Of a DNA stretch of 64,000 nucleotides, positions 42,588 through 62,547 are shown in pieces (position 1 is the stretch's first letter; every line of letters begins with the position of its first letter). The position numbers and the translations under genes were made by a program. The notes below the pieces were generated by a model. That model saw only the letters and a list, made by a program, of their open reading frames with translations, was not told the origin of the DNA and searched no databases. Origin of the DNA: Gloeocapsopsis dulcis. GTDB taxonomy: Bacteria; Cyanobacteriota; Cyanobacteriia; Cyanobacteriales; Chroococcidiopsidaceae. The stretch spans positions 1,411,501 through 1,475,500 of the forward strand of contig NZ_CP119968.1 of the NCBI RefSeq assembly GCF_032163395.1, written 5' to 3'.

Positions 42588-44039
42588 TTAACGCGGTGCA
42601 AAAACCTGATTGCCAAAGTAGTTATTTCCTGACACATCAGGAGTAATGGTTACACTTCTTAATAGAGAATTATATCCAGTAGCTGCCTCCCATGTATTTT
42701 GATTTGCTAGTCGAATTGAATAGGCAGGGCGACGATATAATTTAGGCGAGGGATCGGGAAAATTAAGAAAGACTTGATACTTGCCATGAGGCATATTCGC
42801 TGGAATACCGCCTTCAACATTTACTGTCTTAGAATTGCCAGGCATCCACTTACGTGGTTCTTCGTTCACTGGTAAATAATACTCTTTTCCAGTTTGCTTG
42901 TGGCGTAAAACAATTTCTACTTTGCGTGGATTGTAAGCACTAGCCCATCCATCATTATTCACTGTGAAAGTCATTGCGAAAGTACCGGATGGTTTCACTT
43001 TTGCTGGAATTGTTGCATTTGTTAAACGAAAACGGTAGCCCAAGCGACGCTTAATTTCTAGCATACAGCCTTGCTGCTCCCACCGTTGTAATACTGCGTG
43101 GTGGAACTCTGAATTCAACACGCTCCAGCGTAGCTGTGCCATTTCTTTTAGCGCATTTGCACAGCCAATATAAGGTTGTGCGTGCTCGCTAGCGCTAGCA
43201 GTTTCACCACCATGTACTACATACAAGTTGTCGTTACCTAAATATTGCTTATCTCTGTCCACCTGGCGATAAGTATAAAATCCCAAATTATCTGAACTTG
43301 CTAAGAAACCATCATTGTGAGTCCCTGTTCTGGCACGATAAGTACCACTAAAAGCTTCGTCAGAATTGAGGGGTTGAGTCGTGTTAAACATATCCATTTT
43401 CTGCTTAGGAAACGGTAATAACACCATGCGTTGTGGAGGTAAAGCAGAAAGCATTTTGTAAAATATTGAGCGAGAATCTGCTGTAACATCTAGCGTTGAG
43501 TTGTTAATCAACTGATGAGAAGAACGATTCCACTGTCCCCAAGCCCCAATGAAGCCTGCTTCTAAATAAGCAATGACATCATAGTTATTTGACAATATTG
43601 GTTGCAGTTGCTCCAAGTGAGTCAAAATAATATCTTTCGGGGCGTCATAGCCACCAATATCCCAATTGTAGGCAAAACGGACTACTAGTTTTACTCCAGC
43701 ATCTCGCGCCCTATCAAAATCTTGTTTGACAAATTCGAGAAAAGATTGAGGTAGACTATTATACCGATATTGCGGAATTACATAAACTCGTCGAACTAAA
43801 CTTATATTCTCTGCTTTAACTGTTTTTAATTGGAAAGCTTGTAACGGAGAATCTTGATGTTTTGTTAAAAAATTTGCGTAAAATCCGCGTTCGGGACTCG
43901 CAAAATTTTCTAGACTTCCTTGATAAGTTGTAGTACCACCATTAACTTCTGTGGCGGCTTGACATGAACCAGCAACGGTTAAACTAACCAAGGAAAAAAT
44001 AACAGGGATTTGCAAACGTTGTAAAAGTCGTCTCATCAT
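42588..44039 (-). CDS. Secreted DUF4874/DUF4832 protein
   Basis: 483 residues with an N-terminal signal peptide (about 1-28, 'VIFSLVSLTVAGSCQAATE'). The first domain ('FASPERGFYANF', 'LVRRVYVIPQYRYNSLP', 'GVKLVVRFAYNWDIGG', 'YLEAGFIGAWGQWN') matches DUF4874, a TIM-barrel-like glycoside-hydrolase relative. The second ('GYRFRLTNATIPAKVKPSG', 'GKYQVFLNFPDPSPKL') matches DUF4832, a beta-sandwich. It is exported and found next to exopolysaccharide genes, so it may trim or bind the product. Catalytic acids are not established. Family names are from memory of these motifs. Confidence 0.82.
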   Translation of the reverse strand: MMRRLLQRLQIPVIFSLVSLTVAGSCQAATEVNGGTTTYQGSLENFASPERGFYANFLTKHQDSPLQAFQLKTVKAENISLVRRVYVIPQYRYNSLPQSFLEFVKQDFDRARDAGVKLVVRFAYNWDIGGYDAPKDIILTHLEQLQPILSNNYDVIAYLEAGFIGAWGQWNRSSHQLINNSTLDVTADSRSIFYKMLSALPPQRMVLLPFPKQKMDMFNTTQPLNSDEAFSGTYRARTGTHNDGFLASSDNLGFYTYRQVDRDKQYLGNDNLYVVHGGETASASEHAQPYIGCANALKEMAQLRWSVLNSEFHHAVLQRWEQQGCMLEIKRRLGYRFRLTNATIPAKVKPSGTFAMTFTVNNDGWASAYNPRKVEIVLRHKQTGKEYYLPVNEEPRKWMPGNSKTVNVEGGIPANMPHGKYQVFLNFPDPSPKLYRRPAYSIRLANQNTWEAATGYNSLLRSVTITPDVSGNNYFGNQVFAPR

Positions 44040-44332: not shown

Positions 44333-47107
44333 CTAAAATGAATTAATTGGAGCAAAGCGTGTTGCTAGTAGCGCCTCAATAGCATGACCTTCTACAGGTC
44401 TAGAAAATAAATACCCTTGTCCATATTCGCACTTGAGTGCTCGAATTCGTGCAAGTTGCTTGATTGTTTCTACTCCAGTAGCCGTCATGTTTATGTTCAA
44501 ATCGTGCGCGATCACCGCAATAGTTTGCACAATTTCCGAGCTTTCACTGTCAGTACAACTAACGAGCGTTCGATCGAGCTTCAACTTACTGATTTTATTA
44601 TTCTGCAGAATTTGTGGTACTTGCTGAAGTAAGCTTAAAAAAGAGTAACCCACACCAATATTATCTATTTGTAACTCCACTCCTAAAGCGGTTAACTGTT
44701 GAATGACCGCCGCAGTATGCTCAGGGTCTTCTACAATTACGTTTTCAGCCATTTCTAACCTTAAACTATCTGCTTTCAAATTGACATTTTGCAGAATTTG
44801 TGCAATTTGCTCACTCAAGTCAGGTTGAAAAAATTGTTTATGCGAAAGATTGACACCCATCGTTAAGCGAGTATGAGGAAATTGTTGTTGCCAAGCCTGG
44901 AGTTGTCTGCAAGCTTGTCGTAATACCCACCAACCAATCGGAACAATCAAACCTGTGTTTTCGGCGATATCGATAAATTTTGATGGTGCGATTAAGCCTT
45001 GTTGAGGATGTTGCCAGCGCAATAAAGCTTCAAACCCTGTAATATCATTCGTATCCAGATTGACGATCGGTTGATAGTGAATTCGCAACTCAGATTGCGT
45101 TAAAGCACGCTGTAAGTCTTGCTCGAGTTGTGTTAGTGTATTAACTTGCCAGTTAGTGCGATCGCCTGAGACAACCGTACTATCATTGGGAATGGCATTG
45201 CTGCTACTCGGCTGATATTCAATGACTAGCTGTTTTAGCAAAGCAGCAATAGCTTTACTATCGTTTAAGTTTGCCGCTTCACAAAGCGCTGCTACCATCG
45301 CATTTAAATTTGAGGGAATAATTCCACTCGCATTGCTGACTGAGACGATTTTTTCGTGCTGCGTTGGTTCGTAACGTTCTCCAGGAATAAATAATTCCTC
45401 ATACAGCTTTTCTCCTGGTCGCAGTCCTGTATACACAATATCGATATCTTCACCGACTTCATAACCGGAAAGGCGAATCAAATCCTTTGCCAAATCGACA
45501 ATCTTAACAGGTTCCCCCATTTTGAGCATAAAGATTTCTCCACCTTGACCAATTACTGCAGCTTGCAGTACAAGTTGAACTGCTTCGGGAATCGTCATGA
45601 AGTAGCGGCAAATATCAGGATGTGTAATTGTAATCGGACCGCCTGCAGCAATCTGTCGCTTAAATGTCGGAACTACACTACCTCGACTCCCTAATACGTT
45701 GCCAAAACGCACAACAACAAAAGGTTTTTTACTCTTTTGTGCTGCTTTCAATACCAACATTTCTGCTGCCCTTTTACTCGCGCCCATAATACTTGTGGGA
45801 TTCACGGCTTTATCAGTAGAAATCATCACAAAGTGTTTGACGTTGTAGCGCAGTGCTAAATCGAGTAGATTTTTCGTTCCTATAACGTTATTTGTAATTG
45901 CTTCTGGTGAGTTTGCTTCCATCAATGGCACGTGTTTGTGTGCTGCTGCATGGAAAATAATATCTGGTCTAAACTGCTCAAAAGTGTATTCTAAGCGCAA
46001 AGCACAGCGAATATCAGCGATTAACGTCGTTAGTCGAGGTGGATTTGGGCAAGAATGCCCATCTAAGGTTTGTTTGAGTTCCTGTTGGATGTTAAAGACA
46101 GAGTTTTCTCCGTGTCCGACGAGCAATATTTCTGCAGGACAACATTGCAGTACTTGACGACAAATTTCACCACCTATTGAGCCTCCAGCACCTGTAATCA
46201 GAACGCGCTTACCATTGAGAAAGTGTGAAACCTCCTTTACATCTGTTTCAATAGGTTCGCGTCGCAGTAAATCTTCAATTTTGACATCTCGAATACTAGC
46301 AATGCGGGCATTACTACTGAGAATTTCATGCATACTTGGCAAGGTACTTGTCGCCACACCTAGCGACTGACAACGATCAACAATTTCTCGCACGATTTTT
46401 CCAGAAACAGTCGGCATGGCAATAATGACACGCTCGATGTTGAAAGCGCGTACGATGTCTGGAATGCTACGGCAATCCCCCAGTACTCGAACTCCCCGAA
46501 TGCGTAAACCTAACTTTGTCGAATCGTCATCAATAAAACCAACTGCATAAAGACCAAGTTTCGGATTGTGTTGAATTGTTTGAGCTAACGACACACCTGC
46601 ATTACCAGCACCGACAATCAAAGCACGTTCATATTGATAGGTGGTTTGTGGTAATTGATACATTCGCTCTACAGCACGTACGCTAAAGCGGACTCCACCA
46701 ACTAAGAGTAAACTCAGTATGCCATCGAGTAGCGGTAGCGATCGCGGTAAATCCTCTACCAAAACATGATTGTAGTAAAGCAGGTAGAATAACCAAGTCT
46801 GGACAATAACAGCAGCAGTCATGGAAGCAATGACTTGGATGAGTTCATCAATACTGGCATAACGCCAACAGCGACGATAAAAACCAAATAAGTACAACAG
46901 TACGATCTTTACAACTAGAAATAGGATTGTTACAATAAAAACATCGGTACCATACACCCGATAGACAAATAATTTGTCTAAGCGCAACGCAAGTGCTAAT
47001 ACGGGCGTTAATAAAAAGATTGCTGTATCAGCAGCAAGAAAATGGCGGTTACGTAACCGCAGCCAAATATTTGATAGTGTATCTATCATGACTTTACGTC
47101 CAGGCAA
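44333..47107 (-). CDS. Membrane NDP-sugar 4,6-dehydratase (CapD/PglF-like) fused to a degenerate EAL domain
   Basis: 924 residues. Residues 1-130 hold four membrane helices; a nucleotide-binding domain follows ('[14 protein letters not shown]'); the catalytic SDR domain starts near 305 ('[15 protein letters not shown]'). '[17 protein letters not shown]' (about 429) has Met in place of the SDR Tyr, as in UDP-GlcNAc 4,6-dehydratases. Usual proteins end near 630; here a linker leads to an EAL domain (about 660-915). EALLRW and GVNLS are kept, but DDFG is DNIG (about 812) and AEGVET is ATGVET (about 876). The EAL part is therefore probably a c-di-GMP receptor, not a phosphodiesterase. It should supply the 4-keto sugar to the 21103 aminotransferase. 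Confidence 0.93.
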
Positions 47108-56935: not shown

Positions 56936-58853
56936 TACTAAGATTGAATATCCACAACAGCAATGTATTCATCAGTTGTTTGAGGCACAAGTAGAACGCA
57001 CACCTGATGCAGTAGCAGTCGTATTTGAATCGGAGCAGTTAACCTATCAGGAATTAAACGCCAGAGCCAATCAACTAGCGCATTACTTGCGCTCCTTGGG
57101 AGTCAAACCAGAGGTATTGGTGGGGATTTGTGTAGAGCGATCGCTTGCTATGGTCATCGGCTTATTAGCTATACTCAAAGCAGGTGGTGCTTATGTACCG
57201 CTAGATCCAGCTTATCCCTAAGAAAGATTAGCTTATATGTTGTCTGAAACTCAACTATCGGTTGTGTTAACTCAGCAATCCCTAGTTGAACAACTCCCAG
57301 CACATCAGGCACATACAGTTTACTTAGATACAGATTGGGAGCAGATTGCTCAGGAAAGCCAAACTAACCCGATCAATACGAATACAGTTAACAATTTAGC
57401 TTATGTAATTTACACCTCTGGTTCCACAGGCAAACCCAAGGGGGTGCTTGGTATTCATCAAGGTGCAGTCAATCGGTTTCATTGGATGTGGAAAACTCAT
57501 CCCTTTACTCAACAAGAAGTTTGTTGTCAAAAGACATCTTTAAACTTTGTTGATTCAGTTTGGGAAATTTTTGGACCTTTACTTCAAGGAATAACCACAG
57601 TAATTGTGCCAGAGCAAGTTGTGAAAGACCCACAACAGTTGATAACTATTCTGGTAGACAAAAATGTTACACGATTAGTACTTGTCCCTTCTTTATTACG
57701 TGTAGTATTAAATACAGATAATCTCTTACACTTGCAATTACCCAAGCTAAAGTTGTGGATTAGCAGTGGCGAAGCCCTATCTACTGATATCCTCAGACAA
57801 TTTCAGCAGAGTTTACCAGATAGTACCTTGTTAAATCTTTACGGTTCATCAGAGGTATCTGCTGATGTCACCTGTTACAAGATTACCCCACAAACACCCC
57901 TATCAGCATCTGTTTTAATTGGTCGTCCAATTGCTAATACGCAGATATATATACTGGATACTAGTCAACAACCTGTTCCTGTAGGTGTACCAGGTGAAAT
58001 ATATATAGGTGGTGACCAACTAGCAAGAGGTTACTTAAACCGTCCTGATTTGACAGCAGAAAAATTCATCCCCAATCCATTTAGCGACAAAGCCGCGCGT
58101 CTGTACAAGACAGGAGACTTAGCACGCTATTTACCCAATGGAGAAATAGAATACATTGGTCGCATTGACAATCAGGTTAAGATACGTGGTTTCCGCATTG
58201 AACTAGGAGAAATTGAAGCTTTAATCACTCAACATCCCGCAGTGCAAGAAACTGTTGTTATTGTCAGAGAGGATATACCTGGAGACAAAAGACTAGTAGC
58301 TTATATGGTATTTAAACAGGAATTAGTCCCTAAATTTAGTGAACTACGAAGCTTTCTCAAAGAAATACTGCCCAATTATATGATACCTACTGCCTTCGTA
58401 CCCATAAAGGCACTGCCCCTCACACCAAATGGCAAAGTGAATCGTCGGGCGTTACCAGCACCAGATAATTTTGAACCAGAATTGCGAACAACTAGTGTCC
58501 AACCACGAAATCATCTGGAAATTTCCATCGCCAGTGTTTGGCAGAAGGTATTAAAGATAGAAAACATAGGCATCTACGATAATTTCTTTGAAATTGGTGG
58601 ACATTCATTATTATTGCTTCAGGTTCATAGTCAACTGTGTGAAATATTCTCTACAAATTTATTAGTAATCGATCTATTCAAGTATCCAACGATCAGTTCT
58701 CTTGCTGATTTTCTCGGTTTAGCAAACACAAACGAATTATCCAATGTTCACCAAACTGAAGCTAAAAATGAACAATTAAAAAAAGGTAAAACACGAATTA
58801 ACCAATTTTTAAAAATTAGTAAAAGAATTAGAAATTTTTCCAACAACCTCTAA
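56919..58853 (+). pseudogene. NRPS adenylation-carrier module with internal stop (5'-truncated)
   Basis: An adenylation domain starts at 'IHQLFEAQVERTPDAVAVVF' and is cut by TAA at 57219-57221, where 'AYPQERLAYML' is expected (CAA to TAA). The same frame resumes to 58853: A3 'YTSGSTGKPKGVL', A5 'NLYGSSEVSADV', A7/A8 'YKTGDLARYLPNG' and 'RGFRIELGEIEA', A10 'PNGKVNRRALP', then a PCP ('FFEIGGHSLLLLQ') with the phosphopantetheine Ser. No condensation domain is left. Pocket residues read by eye as V-D-W-L-I-S-L-A-D, which resembles the beta-alanine code I remember from bleomycin NRPS. The 3' end overlaps the convergent gene by 4 bp. Confidence 0.83.
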
Positions 58854-59839
58854 GGTGTGTTGACGAGATATTTAAACAAATCATCAATTATTCTATTAGC
58901 CCCAAACGGACCACCAACACTCCAGTCTACTTGATAGACTCGGTTATTTTGCACCGCTTGAAGCTGTGCCCAAATAGGCTGTTTCAAAAAAGACATGGGA
59001 TCTGGGGTCTCTTCAGCCCAGTCATCAACAAACAAAACATCTGCATCATGGTTGGGTAACATTTCAATACTTGATATTAAGGAGGATTCTTTTTGATTTT
59101 GTTGGATTAATGGACGAGTTAAACCTATATCATTAATAATTTGACTAGGAATTGTAAAATCTGATCTATAGGTGTAAATATTTTGTCCTTCAAGAGCAAT
59201 CACAGATACAGTTATTTTCTCTAACTTTTCTCCTAATTGTTGCCGTAATTTTTTAATTCGCTCTTGATACACAACTAATAATTCCTCAGCTTGATCGCCT
59301 TTTCCTAGTACATGAGCAATGTATCGCAGCCTTTCCTTGAAATCTTGCAATTCGAGAGAGTTAATTAATATTGTGGGTGCAATTTCTGAAAGTAGTTCAT
59401 AATAATTCTTTTGAAAATGCGTTCCCAAAATCAAATCTGGCTTGAGGGTGAGAATCTTTTCTATGGAGGGTTGGCTAATATTACCGACTGTTGGAATATC
59501 AACAACTAACTCAGGAGGAATCCCCCGAAAACGCTCACCCTCGTGAGGCCAGTAAGCACTACCAATTGGTTTGACACCCAATGCCAAAACGGAATCAAGA
59601 ATCAACATATCGTGTAAAACGATGACTCTTTGTGGAGCAACAGGAATCCTGACTTCACCTAAAGCATGGTTAACAACTTGTGTGGCTATTGGCGATCGCA
59701 TTTTTGAGCTTGGTTGCATTTTTAGCTGGGATGTATTGCTGTGACAAGCTGCGATCGCTAAAATAGCCACTGTGATCACAAAGATGGAAATCAATTTGAC
59801 AAGTCTAGAAGAAAAAGTCAGTTTCACTAGTAGCCACAC
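58850..59839 (-). CDS. Siderophore-binding lipoprotein of an iron ABC transporter (FecB/FhuD-like)
   Basis: 329 residues with a signal and lipobox ending at Cys32 ('AILAIAAC'), so lipid-anchored in the periplasm. The Peripla_BP_2 fold shows 'PQRVIVLHDMLILDSVLALGV', 'VGNISQPSIEKILTLKPDLIL' and 'WAQLQAVQNNRVYQVDWSVG'. It captures ferric siderophore passed by the TonB receptor encoded 2 bp upstream (59842) and hands it to a permease not in this window. GTG start at 59839, or GTG four codons later. The two genes are clearly an operon. Confidence 0.92.
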   Translation of the reverse strand: MWLLVKLTFSSRLVKLISIFVITVAILAIAACHSNTSQLKMQPSSKMRSPIATQVVNHALGEVRIPVAPQRVIVLHDMLILDSVLALGVKPIGSAYWPHEGERFRGIPPELVVDIPTVGNISQPSIEKILTLKPDLILGTHFQKNYYELLSEIAPTILINSLELQDFKERLRYIAHVLGKGDQAEELLVVYQERIKKLRQQLGEKLEKITVSVIALEGQNIYTYRSDFTIPSQIINDIGLTRPLIQQNQKESSLISSIEMLPNHDADVLFVDDWAEETPDPMSFLKQPIWAQLQAVQNNRVYQVDWSVGGPFGANRIIDDLFKYLVNTP

Positions 59840-59841
59840 AG

Positions 59842-62547
59842 TTAAAAGGTAATAGACACGGAACCCACAACAGAGAAAGGCGCACCAGGCATTACGCCAC
59901 CTTCCCGAAACTCATTAGTTCCCACAAAATATTGGGTGTTAAACACGTTTTGAAAGTTAATTTGCGCTCTCCAATTATCTCGACGATAAAAGATAGACGC
60001 ATCTGTTCGCAAATAACTGGGAACCGCAAATGAATTTACTAAATCAGCTTCTCGTTCTCCAACGTAGTATAAACCTAAACCAAATCCTAACCCCTCCAAA
60101 GTCCCTTGCTGAATCTGATAAGTGTTCCACAAACTAAAAGAGTGACGCGGTGTAAAGATAAACCGATTGCCAACAGGAATTCTATTATCTTGGCTGACAA
60201 AGGCATCTGTATAAGCATAGGCAGCAATCATATTCCATCCAGGTGAAATTTCCCCGGAGATATCTAACTCAACACCTCGACTTTTGACTTCTCCAGTCAC
60301 AACTGAAAAACTTCGATTATCTGGATCAGTTGTGGGTATGTTTGTCTTTGTAATATCAAAATATGCCAGAGTTGCAGTTACCCTATCACTTAAATCAGCT
60401 TTAACACCTACTTCATACTGGGTTGCTTTTTGTGGTGGGGGTGCAGAACCATCTGCTAGGTTAGCTGTATTTGGCTCAAATCCTTGAACAAACGATGCGT
60501 ACAGGGAAACAGGCTGTATCGGCTGATAAACTAAACCAACTCTGGGACTGAATACAGAAGTTGTTCGTTCTGTAGTTGTTGACGTGATTAAGTTATCAAT
60601 TTTTCTTTGAAAACTATCAAATCGTCCACCTAGTAATAGCTTCAAATTATCTGTAAAAGCAATTTGGTCTTGCAGGTAGAAAGCATAAGTTGTAAAGTTT
60701 TCATCTCGCTGGGTACCAAATGGAAAGGAGTTAAATCTAAATCGGTCTGTGGAGTAAACAGGGCTAAAAATATTAAACGGTGTATCAAGGTCAACGCCAC
60801 CAAAAAATATCCTGCGGTTACGGGTTTCTCTACCAAGCTCAAACCCAATCAACAATTTATGTTCGATTGAACCTGTTTTAAAATTTCCCGTAATGTCTAA
60901 ATTATTGAAGTAAGAACTAACCGAGTCGTCTGACGTAAAACGTTGCCTTGAAGAAAATTCTCCCGTGGCCTCATCGAAATTAGAATAACCTCCTTGCGCC
61001 CTACGCAAGTTACTCGATCTAACAGCAAATGTATTACGCACAGACCAATCTTGGCTAAAGCGATGCTCGAATGTTGCACTCAGGTTATATCGTTGGAGGT
61101 CATCTTTCCCAAACGGATCTCCAAAATCCCCCGACTCACATAAAGCGCGGCTTCTGGGAATGTCAGCCACTCCTCGTCCCACCGCCGGAACACCACAGAT
61201 AAAAGTTGCACTAGAGTCAATAAACTCCAAATCAAGTGCTAACTTTGTGTCAGGAGAGATTCTCCACTCAAGGCTAGGTGCTAAGAAATATCGCTCTGAG
61301 TTGGCGAACTCCACAAAGCTGCGCGCTCTGTTATACGAGCCAACAAAGCGATACAAAACGGTTTTTTCCGGATTGAGAGGTCCAGAGATGTCAAATGATG
61401 GGCGATACTCTTCAAAACTCCCTACAGAAAAGCCTAGATTATAGTAAGGTTCGCTCAGAGGCTTTTTAGTAACTAAATTGATAATTCCTCCAGGGCTACC
61501 CTGACCAAAGAGTACAGAGGCTGGTCCTTTGAGTACCTCAACTTGCTCAATGTTATCTGTATTAGAGTTGTCATAGGCAAAACCACCAAGTGAAGTACCA
61601 TTTCTAAAAAATGAGTCAAAACTTGCAAACCCACGTAAGCGAGGTATGGCAACATTTCCACCGTAAATTTCTGAGTTAGTACCACTGACATTTTGCAGTG
61701 CTTCTCCCACATTAGTAACGCCCCTGTCTTCAATTACTTGACGCGGTACAACTTGAATAGAGGCGGGAATATCTCGAAGTGGTGTATCGGTACGGGTTGC
61801 CGTTGATGCATTAGGTACACGATACCCCGCATCCTGCTCTGCGGTCACTACCAACTCAATTAGCTCATTCTCTTGTACTGATGATTCCTCTGGCGGTATT
61901 TCACCCATGGGCTGCTCAACCCCAGGCTGCACTGCAATTGCCGCAGGTGTCAAACCAAAAATCAATCCTTCATCACCTTCAAAGAACTCAACCGTTGGCA
62001 ATCCTGTTTCACCCGCCACTGTCACCCGAATCGTATTGGCATCAAAGTTAGTCACAGTTATCTCAGTAATCCCATCAACAGGGTTTTGAGAACGAAATGT
62101 GAACCCATCACCCCTGGGTAAACGCAATTGAGCATTGGGAATGTCAGCGATAAAGTCATTCTCAGTACTGCGATTCGTAATTTGTAGTTGTTCCCCCTGA
62201 GTCGTCTGTAATATCACCTCCACACCTTGTTCAGTGGGATTAGCTTGCACTCCCGTCACCTGTATTACCTCAGAGGAAGCTGGCGACTGTACGAGTAGTT
62301 CCGCACTCTGGGAAACCTGCGAAATCTGACTCAGCTGAAGAATCTTTCTGTTGCTGGAAGCCAATACCGGAGATTTACTGCTTACAAACTCTTTGTCTGT
62401 AATTGCGATCGCGTCATGTAATGCAGATTTTTCGACTGTCGCAGTAGAAGATCCATCTTGAGTTTTTTCACTTCTAGCAGGAGTGCTAATCAACACCACA
62501 ACTACACCTGTCAGCAACAAACTTTGAAATAACTTATCTAACTTCAT
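59842..62547 (-). CDS. TonB-dependent siderophore receptor with AMIN domain
   Basis: 901 residues. After a signal peptide (about 1-27) and a linker, an AMIN domain lies at about 92-205 ('VTGVQANPTEQGVEVILQT', 'FTFRSQNPVDGITEITV'). The plug spans about 248-365 ('DIPASIQVVPRQVIEDRGV', 'VLKGPASVLFGQGSPGGIINL'). The 22-strand barrel ends in 'VVGSVSITF' with the terminal Phe. The combination is typical of cyanobacterial ferrisiderophore receptors (FhuE/FcuA/IutA-like). It imports ferric siderophore through the outer membrane with TonB energy. The substrate may be the product of the NRPS/PKS genes on either side. Confidence 0.95.
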   Translation of the reverse strand: MKLDKLFQSLLLTGVVVVLISTPARSEKTQDGSSTATVEKSALHDAIAITDKEFVSSKSPVLASSNRKILQLSQISQVSQSAELLVQSPASSEVIQVTGVQANPTEQGVEVILQTTQGEQLQITNRSTENDFIADIPNAQLRLPRGDGFTFRSQNPVDGITEITVTNFDANTIRVTVAGETGLPTVEFFEGDEGLIFGLTPAAIAVQPGVEQPMGEIPPEESSVQENELIELVVTAEQDAGYRVPNASTATRTDTPLRDIPASIQVVPRQVIEDRGVTNVGEALQNVSGTNSEIYGGNVAIPRLRGFASFDSFFRNGTSLGGFAYDNSNTDNIEQVEVLKGPASVLFGQGSPGGIINLVTKKPLSEPYYNLGFSVGSFEEYRPSFDISGPLNPEKTVLYRFVGSYNRARSFVEFANSERYFLAPSLEWRISPDTKLALDLEFIDSSATFICGVPAVGRGVADIPRSRALCESGDFGDPFGKDDLQRYNLSATFEHRFSQDWSVRNTFAVRSSNLRRAQGGYSNFDEATGEFSSRQRFTSDDSVSSYFNNLDITGNFKTGSIEHKLLIGFELGRETRNRRIFFGGVDLDTPFNIFSPVYSTDRFRFNSFPFGTQRDENFTTYAFYLQDQIAFTDNLKLLLGGRFDSFQRKIDNLITSTTTERTTSVFSPRVGLVYQPIQPVSLYASFVQGFEPNTANLADGSAPPPQKATQYEVGVKADLSDRVTATLAYFDITKTNIPTTDPDNRSFSVVTGEVKSRGVELDISGEISPGWNMIAAYAYTDAFVSQDNRIPVGNRFIFTPRHSFSLWNTYQIQQGTLEGLGFGLGLYYVGEREADLVNSFAVPSYLRTDASIFYRRDNWRAQINFQNVFNTQYFVGTNEFREGGVMPGAPFSVVGSVSITF

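Follow-up and report, generated by a model that had tools for sequence, protein, structure and literature searches.

A dehydratase-EAL fusion gene in a polysaccharide region

The window (the whole 64,000-nucleotide stretch of Gloeocapsopsis dulcis DNA that was analyzed) carries a minus-strand open reading frame at 44333-47107 that encodes 924 aa when counted from TTG, as in the ORF listing. Full-length homologs align from about the Met encoded by the ATG at 47089, which gives a protein of 918 aa (P0001; Table 1). The sequence-only reading had proposed that four membrane helices, a sugar dehydratase, and an EAL domain lie in one frame, and this layout was borne out by the 918-aa ORF, by Pfam, and by AlphaFold2.

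Table 1. Features of the fusion gene and its downstream neighbor, in window coordinates.
Feature	Position	Strand	Remarks
CapD/PglF-EAL fusion gene, 918 aa	44333..47089	-	ATG start; stop codon included
N-terminal membrane part, four predicted helices, aa 2-145	46655..47086	-	AlphaFold2 helices and hydropathy segments
CoA_binding_3 (PF13727), aa 67-247	46349..46891	-	Pfam, 2.5e-17
Polysacc_synt_2 (PF02719) dehydratase, aa 296-584	45338..46204	-	Pfam, 6.2e-117; best solved relative PglF, Campylobacter jejuni
NAD-binding GAGGSIG, aa 300-306	46172..46192	-	Three Gly kept in 79/79 fetched clade members
Dehydratase active site TDK.......M...K, aa 425-439	45773..45817	-	Kept in 79/79; PglF residue names from PDB titles
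Dehydratase/EAL linker, aa 622-643	45161..45226	-	pLDDT <50 at 630-648
Degenerate EAL domain (PF00563), aa 657-898	44396..45121	-	Pfam, 6.1e-61; model; structure alignment
EALLR (ExLxR ligand motif), aa 687-691	45017..45031	-	E, A, L, R kept in 40/40 complete fusions; motif role from the accessible part of PMC12564702
DNIG replacing DDFG, aa 809-812	44654..44665	-	Second Asp lost in 42/42 (40 complete fusions and 2 remnants)
ATGVE replacing AEGVE, aa 870-874	44468..44482	-	Catalytic-base Glu lost in 40/40; base role from the accessible part of PMC12900916
DUF4874/DUF4832 gene, downstream, recurrent neighbor of the dehydratase clade	42588..44039	-	

AlphaFold2 placed the helices at residues 2-36, 43-67, 80-106, and 118-145, followed by two Rossmann-like parts and an EAL barrel. 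The full-length model, built on a 47-row alignment, had a mean pLDDT of 81.8 and a pTM of 0.56, with pLDDT below 50 across linker residues 630-648, and no fixed or rigid contact between the dehydratase and EAL parts is therefore predicted. The EAL part modeled alone reached a pLDDT of 90.9 and a pTM of 0.89. None of the 60 PDB matches listed spans both parts.

Next to the fusion gene stands a series of genes for glycosyltransferase, Wzy-like, MurJ-like flippase, and sugar transferase proteins, and DegT aminotransferase and Wzc-like genes lie at a greater distance; these neighbors mark the locus as a surface-polysaccharide region. The genome itself encodes 11 GGDEF matches and eight EAL matches, the latter including the window fusion and one fragment. 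No RNA family, c-di-GMP riboswitches included, was detected in the window at the gathering threshold. Elsewhere in the window, at 57237-62547, translations indicated an NRPS adenylation/carrier-like ORF whose neighbors encode an iron-siderophore binding protein and a TonB-dependent receptor.

The dehydratase part resembles PglF

PglF of Campylobacter jejuni was the best solved match of the window dehydratase (43-44% identity, TMt 0.91). Along with this match, several features place the window protein among PglF/CapD-type UDP-GlcNAc 4,6-dehydratases: the Polysacc_synt_2 domain, the NAD glycine motif, an active site with Thr-Asp-Lys, Met (for Tyr), and Lys, and N-terminal membrane helices with a CoA_binding_3 domain. 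Full-length PglF also has membrane helices, and, unlike the window protein, it is not known to carry an EAL domain. The C. jejuni UDP-GlcNAc 4,6-dehydratase (PglF, or WlaL; PDB 5BJU) shares its Thr-Asp-Lys and Met active site with the window protein, whose T, D, K, and M fall at the positions of PglF T395, D396, K397, and M405. By this similarity, the protein would catalyze the first committed step of amino-sugar synthesis. It is the one strong Polysacc_synt_2 protein of its genome (394 bits; next, 111).

The three NAD glycines and the T, D, K, M, and K of the active site were intact in all 79 members of the dehydratase clade described below, fused or unfused. Because the site is kept in both, the chemistry seems not to need the EAL domain, as expected of a regulatory add-on.

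Distribution and origin of the fusion

Sixty relatives were surveyed first, followed by 388 genomes of the order. A complete fusion was found in at least 40 of the 388 genomes, representing six families (f1, f2, f15, f16, f19, and f32); this count is a lower bound, with matches listed down to about E 1e-117 and more distant lineages beyond. The search itself joined the two parts in 33 of the 40, and in seven more the EAL was too diverged to be joined but was plain in the same frame. Full-length homologs in other genomes were 54-89% identical where aligned full length, and, over the dehydratase part, EAL-less relatives shared 57-66% identity with the window protein. In a phylum sample of 386 genomes that overlaps the order sample, the clade was matched (E 1e-180) in 24 genomes, of which only one (G594) lay outside the order, with an unfused copy.

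A check for an assembly or annotation artifact joining two genes had been set beforehand. Two copies do have broken frames. In G004 (L010), one of the 40, the reading frame breaks near aa 270, and this copy was counted by its C-terminal frame, the N-terminal part being in another frame. In G223 (L087), the break separates the dehydratase from an EAL part that is otherwise well preserved; it may be either a sequencing error or a recent loss. Against these stand 39 copies in unbroken frames together with that of G004, each from its own genome and all with the same domain order. The identity of full-length homologs in other genomes excludes a chance or assembly join, the check revealed no artifact, and we consider the chance of one negligible.

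The copies in G049 and G162 (L013 and L060) retain an EAL remnant of ~160 aa that lacks the ExLxR segment and the C-terminal part, and they are perhaps a natural intermediate in EAL loss. When the 37 unfused clade members were searched for a separate downstream EAL gene (E 0.01, ~1-2 kb of flank, partly N in L062), only the frame-broken G223 copy had one; the other 36 had none.

The dehydratase tree included 105 of 107 loci; L059, a duplicate of L013, was dropped, and the partial L028 was left out. The 40 fused, 2 remnant, and 37 unfused dehydratases (the G223 copy among the unfused), which are all the clade members among the matches listed, formed a single clade of 79 with an SH-aLRT of 100. 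The fused EALs also formed one clade (SH-aLRT 99), apart from the 60 control EALs described below. The EAL label changed seven times on the quick tree, which fits one gain and six losses, the G223 frame break among the six; the number of losses is only approximate because the trees were quick, supported by SH-aLRT only, and contained many open or weak forks. From these trees, a single fusion was apparently followed by repeated loss, about five times besides the G223 frame break, and repeated loss indicates that the EAL is dispensable. All 30 fetched members of family f33 lacked the EAL and grouped together in the tree. This family is probably Nostocaceae, since Nostoc, Scytonema, and Calothrix are among the EAL-less relatives known by name.

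Fused EALs lack catalytic residues and keep the putative ligand pocket

For the window protein, the sequence-only reading had reported that EALL was kept, DDFG changed to DNIG, and AEGVET changed to ATGVET, all of which is evident in the protein sequence. Across the family, the second Asp of DDFG was gone in 42 of 42 EALs, remnants included (replaced by N in 28, H in 11, R in 2, and Q in 1), and the first Glu of AEGVE was gone in all 40 complete fused EALs (replaced by T in 35, A in 3, I in 1, and S in 1). The variety of replacement letters shows that nothing holds these two sites to a catalytic role. The losses of both residues descend from one ancestor and do not represent 40 independent events.

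All 40 complete fused EALs retained Q and P in YQP; E, A, L, R, and W in EALLRW; Asn in NLS; the first Glu in LExxE; the first Asp in DDFG; the second Glu in AEGVE; and QG together with the final P. Two further positions were retained in most of them: the second Glu of LExxE (39 of 40) and the Lys of LKID (37 of 40, the conserved Lys being absent from fusions L007-L009). A comparison of pocket and catalytic residue conservation had been set as a test of the receptor reading, and the conserved ligand-pocket residues were still present in every one of the 40 fusions.

Sixty control EALs were used for comparison, six from the same genome and 54 from a contig scan with exact peptide patterns, a method that is weak for distant relatives. 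There were 63 first-pass controls, from which L108, L109, and L181 were dropped as being fusions themselves. The Asp was kept in 60 of 60 controls and the Glu in 59 of 60, the remaining one being a gap. Fifty columns were ≥95% conserved in the controls, although conservation around QGY is inflated because some controls were picked by peptide patterns touching QGY. The fused EALs kept 27 of these columns at ≥95% (Y-Q-P, E.L.RW, P, F, N, E..E, the first D, G.E, QGY, and P), 12 were intermediate, and 11 fell below 50%. The 11 comprised the catalytic-base Glu, the Thr of ExTE, six positions of loop 6, G685, P825, and F842. Five of these columns stood at 0 of 40, namely the catalytic-base E, the second D, the T of ExTE, the T of loop 6, and F842. 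As judged from these columns, the degeneration of the fused EALs is specific. Chance loss of the catalytic residues was ruled out by this systematic comparison.

We take the second Asp of DDFG to be a metal-site residue and E687, N747, E779, and D809, all kept in the window EAL, to be the other acids and the Asn of the metal site; the ligand- and metal-contact roles of the remaining conserved EAL residues are likewise presumed. With those four residues kept, the domain might still be a weak phosphodiesterase that drains c-di-GMP at the site of polysaccharide synthesis. We regard this as very improbable, given that the catalytic-base Glu is lost in all 40 complete fusions, the second DDFG Asp is lost in these and in both remnants, and loop 6 is degenerate; an active EAL phosphodiesterase would have the base, both Asp residues of DDFG, and the loop 6 consensus, a combination that the fused EALs lack. 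The sequence-only reading had counted both lost acids as metal binding, which, on the role assumed above, stands for the DDFG Asp. It does not stand for the Glu of AEGVE, which is the catalytic base according to the accessible part of PMC12900916, where loss of the base serves as the criterion of inactivity and domains without the EGVE Glu are taken as phosphodiesterase-inactive.

The fused EALs are as low as 28% identical to one another (median, 43%), and the kept pocket therefore does not reflect a shortage of time for divergence. This bears on the possibility that the EAL is a ligand-free structural or protein-protein domain. Non-binding EALs such as YdiV are known, the EAL has been lost repeatedly, and the two remnants (L013 and L060) are without the ExLxR segment. 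A ligand-free scaffold would, however, have no reason to keep the pocket, which persists in 40 of 40 fusions down to 28% identity while the catalytic and loop-6 columns have drifted, and we consider this explanation improbable.

The most diverged pseudo-EALs were the fused EALs of family f19 (L048-L058), many of which have TGIEN for EGVET. Loop 6 is barely recognizable in these proteins; EALLRW and the QG motif are nevertheless kept.

The fused EALs have the features of the broad class of degenerate-EAL receptors: an EAL (TIM-barrel) fold, loss of catalytic residues (Glu in all 40 complete fusions; second Asp in these and in both remnants), and an ExLxR motif that is kept in all 40 complete fusions and belongs to the segment missing in the two remnants. 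The available text of PMC12564702 states that FimX and LapD retain c-di-GMP binding via the ExLxR motif. In structure alignments, the EAL model matched solved EALs with Z up to 34.2, and c-di-GMP-bound EALs, including MucR, MorA, and FimX, scored Z 28-34. FimX (Z 28.8) and LapD (Z 26.5) ranked below active-type EALs. Sequence comparison gives good support for the prediction that a PglF-type dehydratase here carries a fused c-di-GMP receptor domain.

Selection on the EAL part

For 19 orthologue pairs, dN/dS was 0.05-0.38 for the EAL, 0.01-0.15 for the dehydratase, and 0-0.93 for the linker. The EAL value was higher than the dehydratase value in every one of the 19 pairs and lower than the linker value in 12 of the 18 pairs that could be compared; the linker comprises only 46-60 codons, and the pairs were hand-picked, share lineages, and are non-independent, with dS >1 in some. 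On these ratios, the EAL part is constrained by purifying selection, less strongly than the dehydratase. Pseudogene drift of the EAL part was ruled out by dN/dS values well below 1 in all 19 pairs.

Discussion

Our preferred reading is that a dead, c-di-GMP-binding EAL domain regulates in cis how much amino sugar is supplied to a surface polysaccharide, with binding and regulation both predicted from sequence; we give it a probability of roughly two in three. A membrane-anchored PglF-type enzyme, presumably acting as a UDP-GlcNAc 4,6-dehydratase, would carry an added C-terminal EAL that probably does not hydrolyze c-di-GMP and has probably retained its binding. The cellular c-di-GMP level may then set the activity, oligomeric state, or placement of the dehydratase, whose product, a 4-keto-6-deoxy amino-sugar nucleotide, would feed a surface polysaccharide of the Wzx/Wzy-like kind. 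The direction, in which high c-di-GMP would activate, is a guess from the usual link between c-di-GMP and polysaccharide. A wider proposal is that c-di-GMP gates the entry of UDP-GlcNAc into the amino-sugar branch inside the enzyme, as an order-wide cyanobacterial device that was built once and discarded independently several times; here we see the odds as evenly balanced.

The EAL might instead bind c-di-GMP and recruit a partner, as FimX recruits PilZ, or place the enzyme with the polysaccharide assembly machinery, such that complex formation rather than turnover would be controlled. Partner recruitment is a serious rival because the domain arrangement is not confidently predicted (pTM 0.56): AlphaFold2 gave a low-confidence linker and predicted no interface. 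FimX-PilZ complexes have been solved (PDB titles), and loop 6, the dimer or switch region in active EALs and in LapD (PMC3032553, accessible part), is rewritten in the fused EALs. No constant partner gene was found, however, within the ~1-2 kb of flank covered. Among the 79 clade loci, the DUF4874/DUF4832 gene followed on the same strand in 17, comprising 14 of the 42 fused or remnant loci and 3 of the 37 unfused ones; of 27 other CapD loci, none had it as a neighbor. Overall, we judge partner recruitment unlikely, though less so than the other alternatives considered.

FimX and LapD offer a close comparison: like the window EAL, they combine an inactive EAL, an ExLxR-type ligand motif, and an altered loop 6. 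They carry a degenerate GGDEF, and their signaling targets are a pilus or a periplasmic protease, whereas the partner domain in the window protein is a biosynthetic enzyme. No GGDEF was matched in the window protein (Pfam), which places it outside the narrow FimX/LapD family of tandem GGDEF-EAL proteins, though it may work alike. LapD, as described in the accessible part of PMC3032553, has an altered loop 6 (switch loop), KVL for EAL, and a central Arg after that motif, whereas the EAL motif of the window protein is intact. The closest EALs in both sequence and fold are of the active type (MucR, MorA, BifA, and TBD1265), not FimX or LapD. The window protein may thus represent a dead EAL of the FimX/LapD kind whose output, an enzyme, is new.

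Direct switching of a carbohydrate enzyme by c-di-GMP has a precedent in GlgX, the glycogen debranching enzyme of Streptomyces, which is c-di-GMP activated; it acts in breakdown, with no EAL mentioned in the accessible part of that report (PMC9530166), whereas the window protein would act in synthesis. The PilZ cellulose synthases (BcsA; Tll0007 of Thermosynechococcus vulcanus) and Alg44 also place a c-di-GMP sensor in polysaccharide machinery (PMC10519070, accessible part). Their PilZ sensor acts on polymerization or export, whereas the EAL of the window protein would act as a sensor on nucleotide-sugar supply. For cyanobacteria, the table of this 2023 receptor review, in the part available, contains only CdgR and the PilZ cellulose synthase. 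In the accessible parts of the same review and of PMC12564702, a 2025 effector review, c-di-GMP control of polysaccharide involves synthases, export partners, and transcription, and the latter text gave no match for 'cyanobacteri' or 'dehydratase'. A search of open-licence PMC full texts found no paper on a CapD/PglF-EAL fusion, as judged by title and abstract start, and none combining PglF, EAL, and c-di-GMP, or CapD and an EAL domain; domain databases may list the architecture without comment.

The fusion allows the question of regulation to be addressed in a single protein, with natural EAL-less relatives as ready-made controls. If the wider proposal is correct, nature has left paired forms of one enzyme, regulated and unregulated, the latter exemplified by the 30 of 30 fetched f33 members, and a second messenger sets monomer supply, not polymerization or transcription. 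Covalent attachment of a receptor domain to an enzyme for a first step of nucleotide-sugar synthesis would be new both as an output of EAL receptors and as a type of c-di-GMP effector in cyanobacteria.
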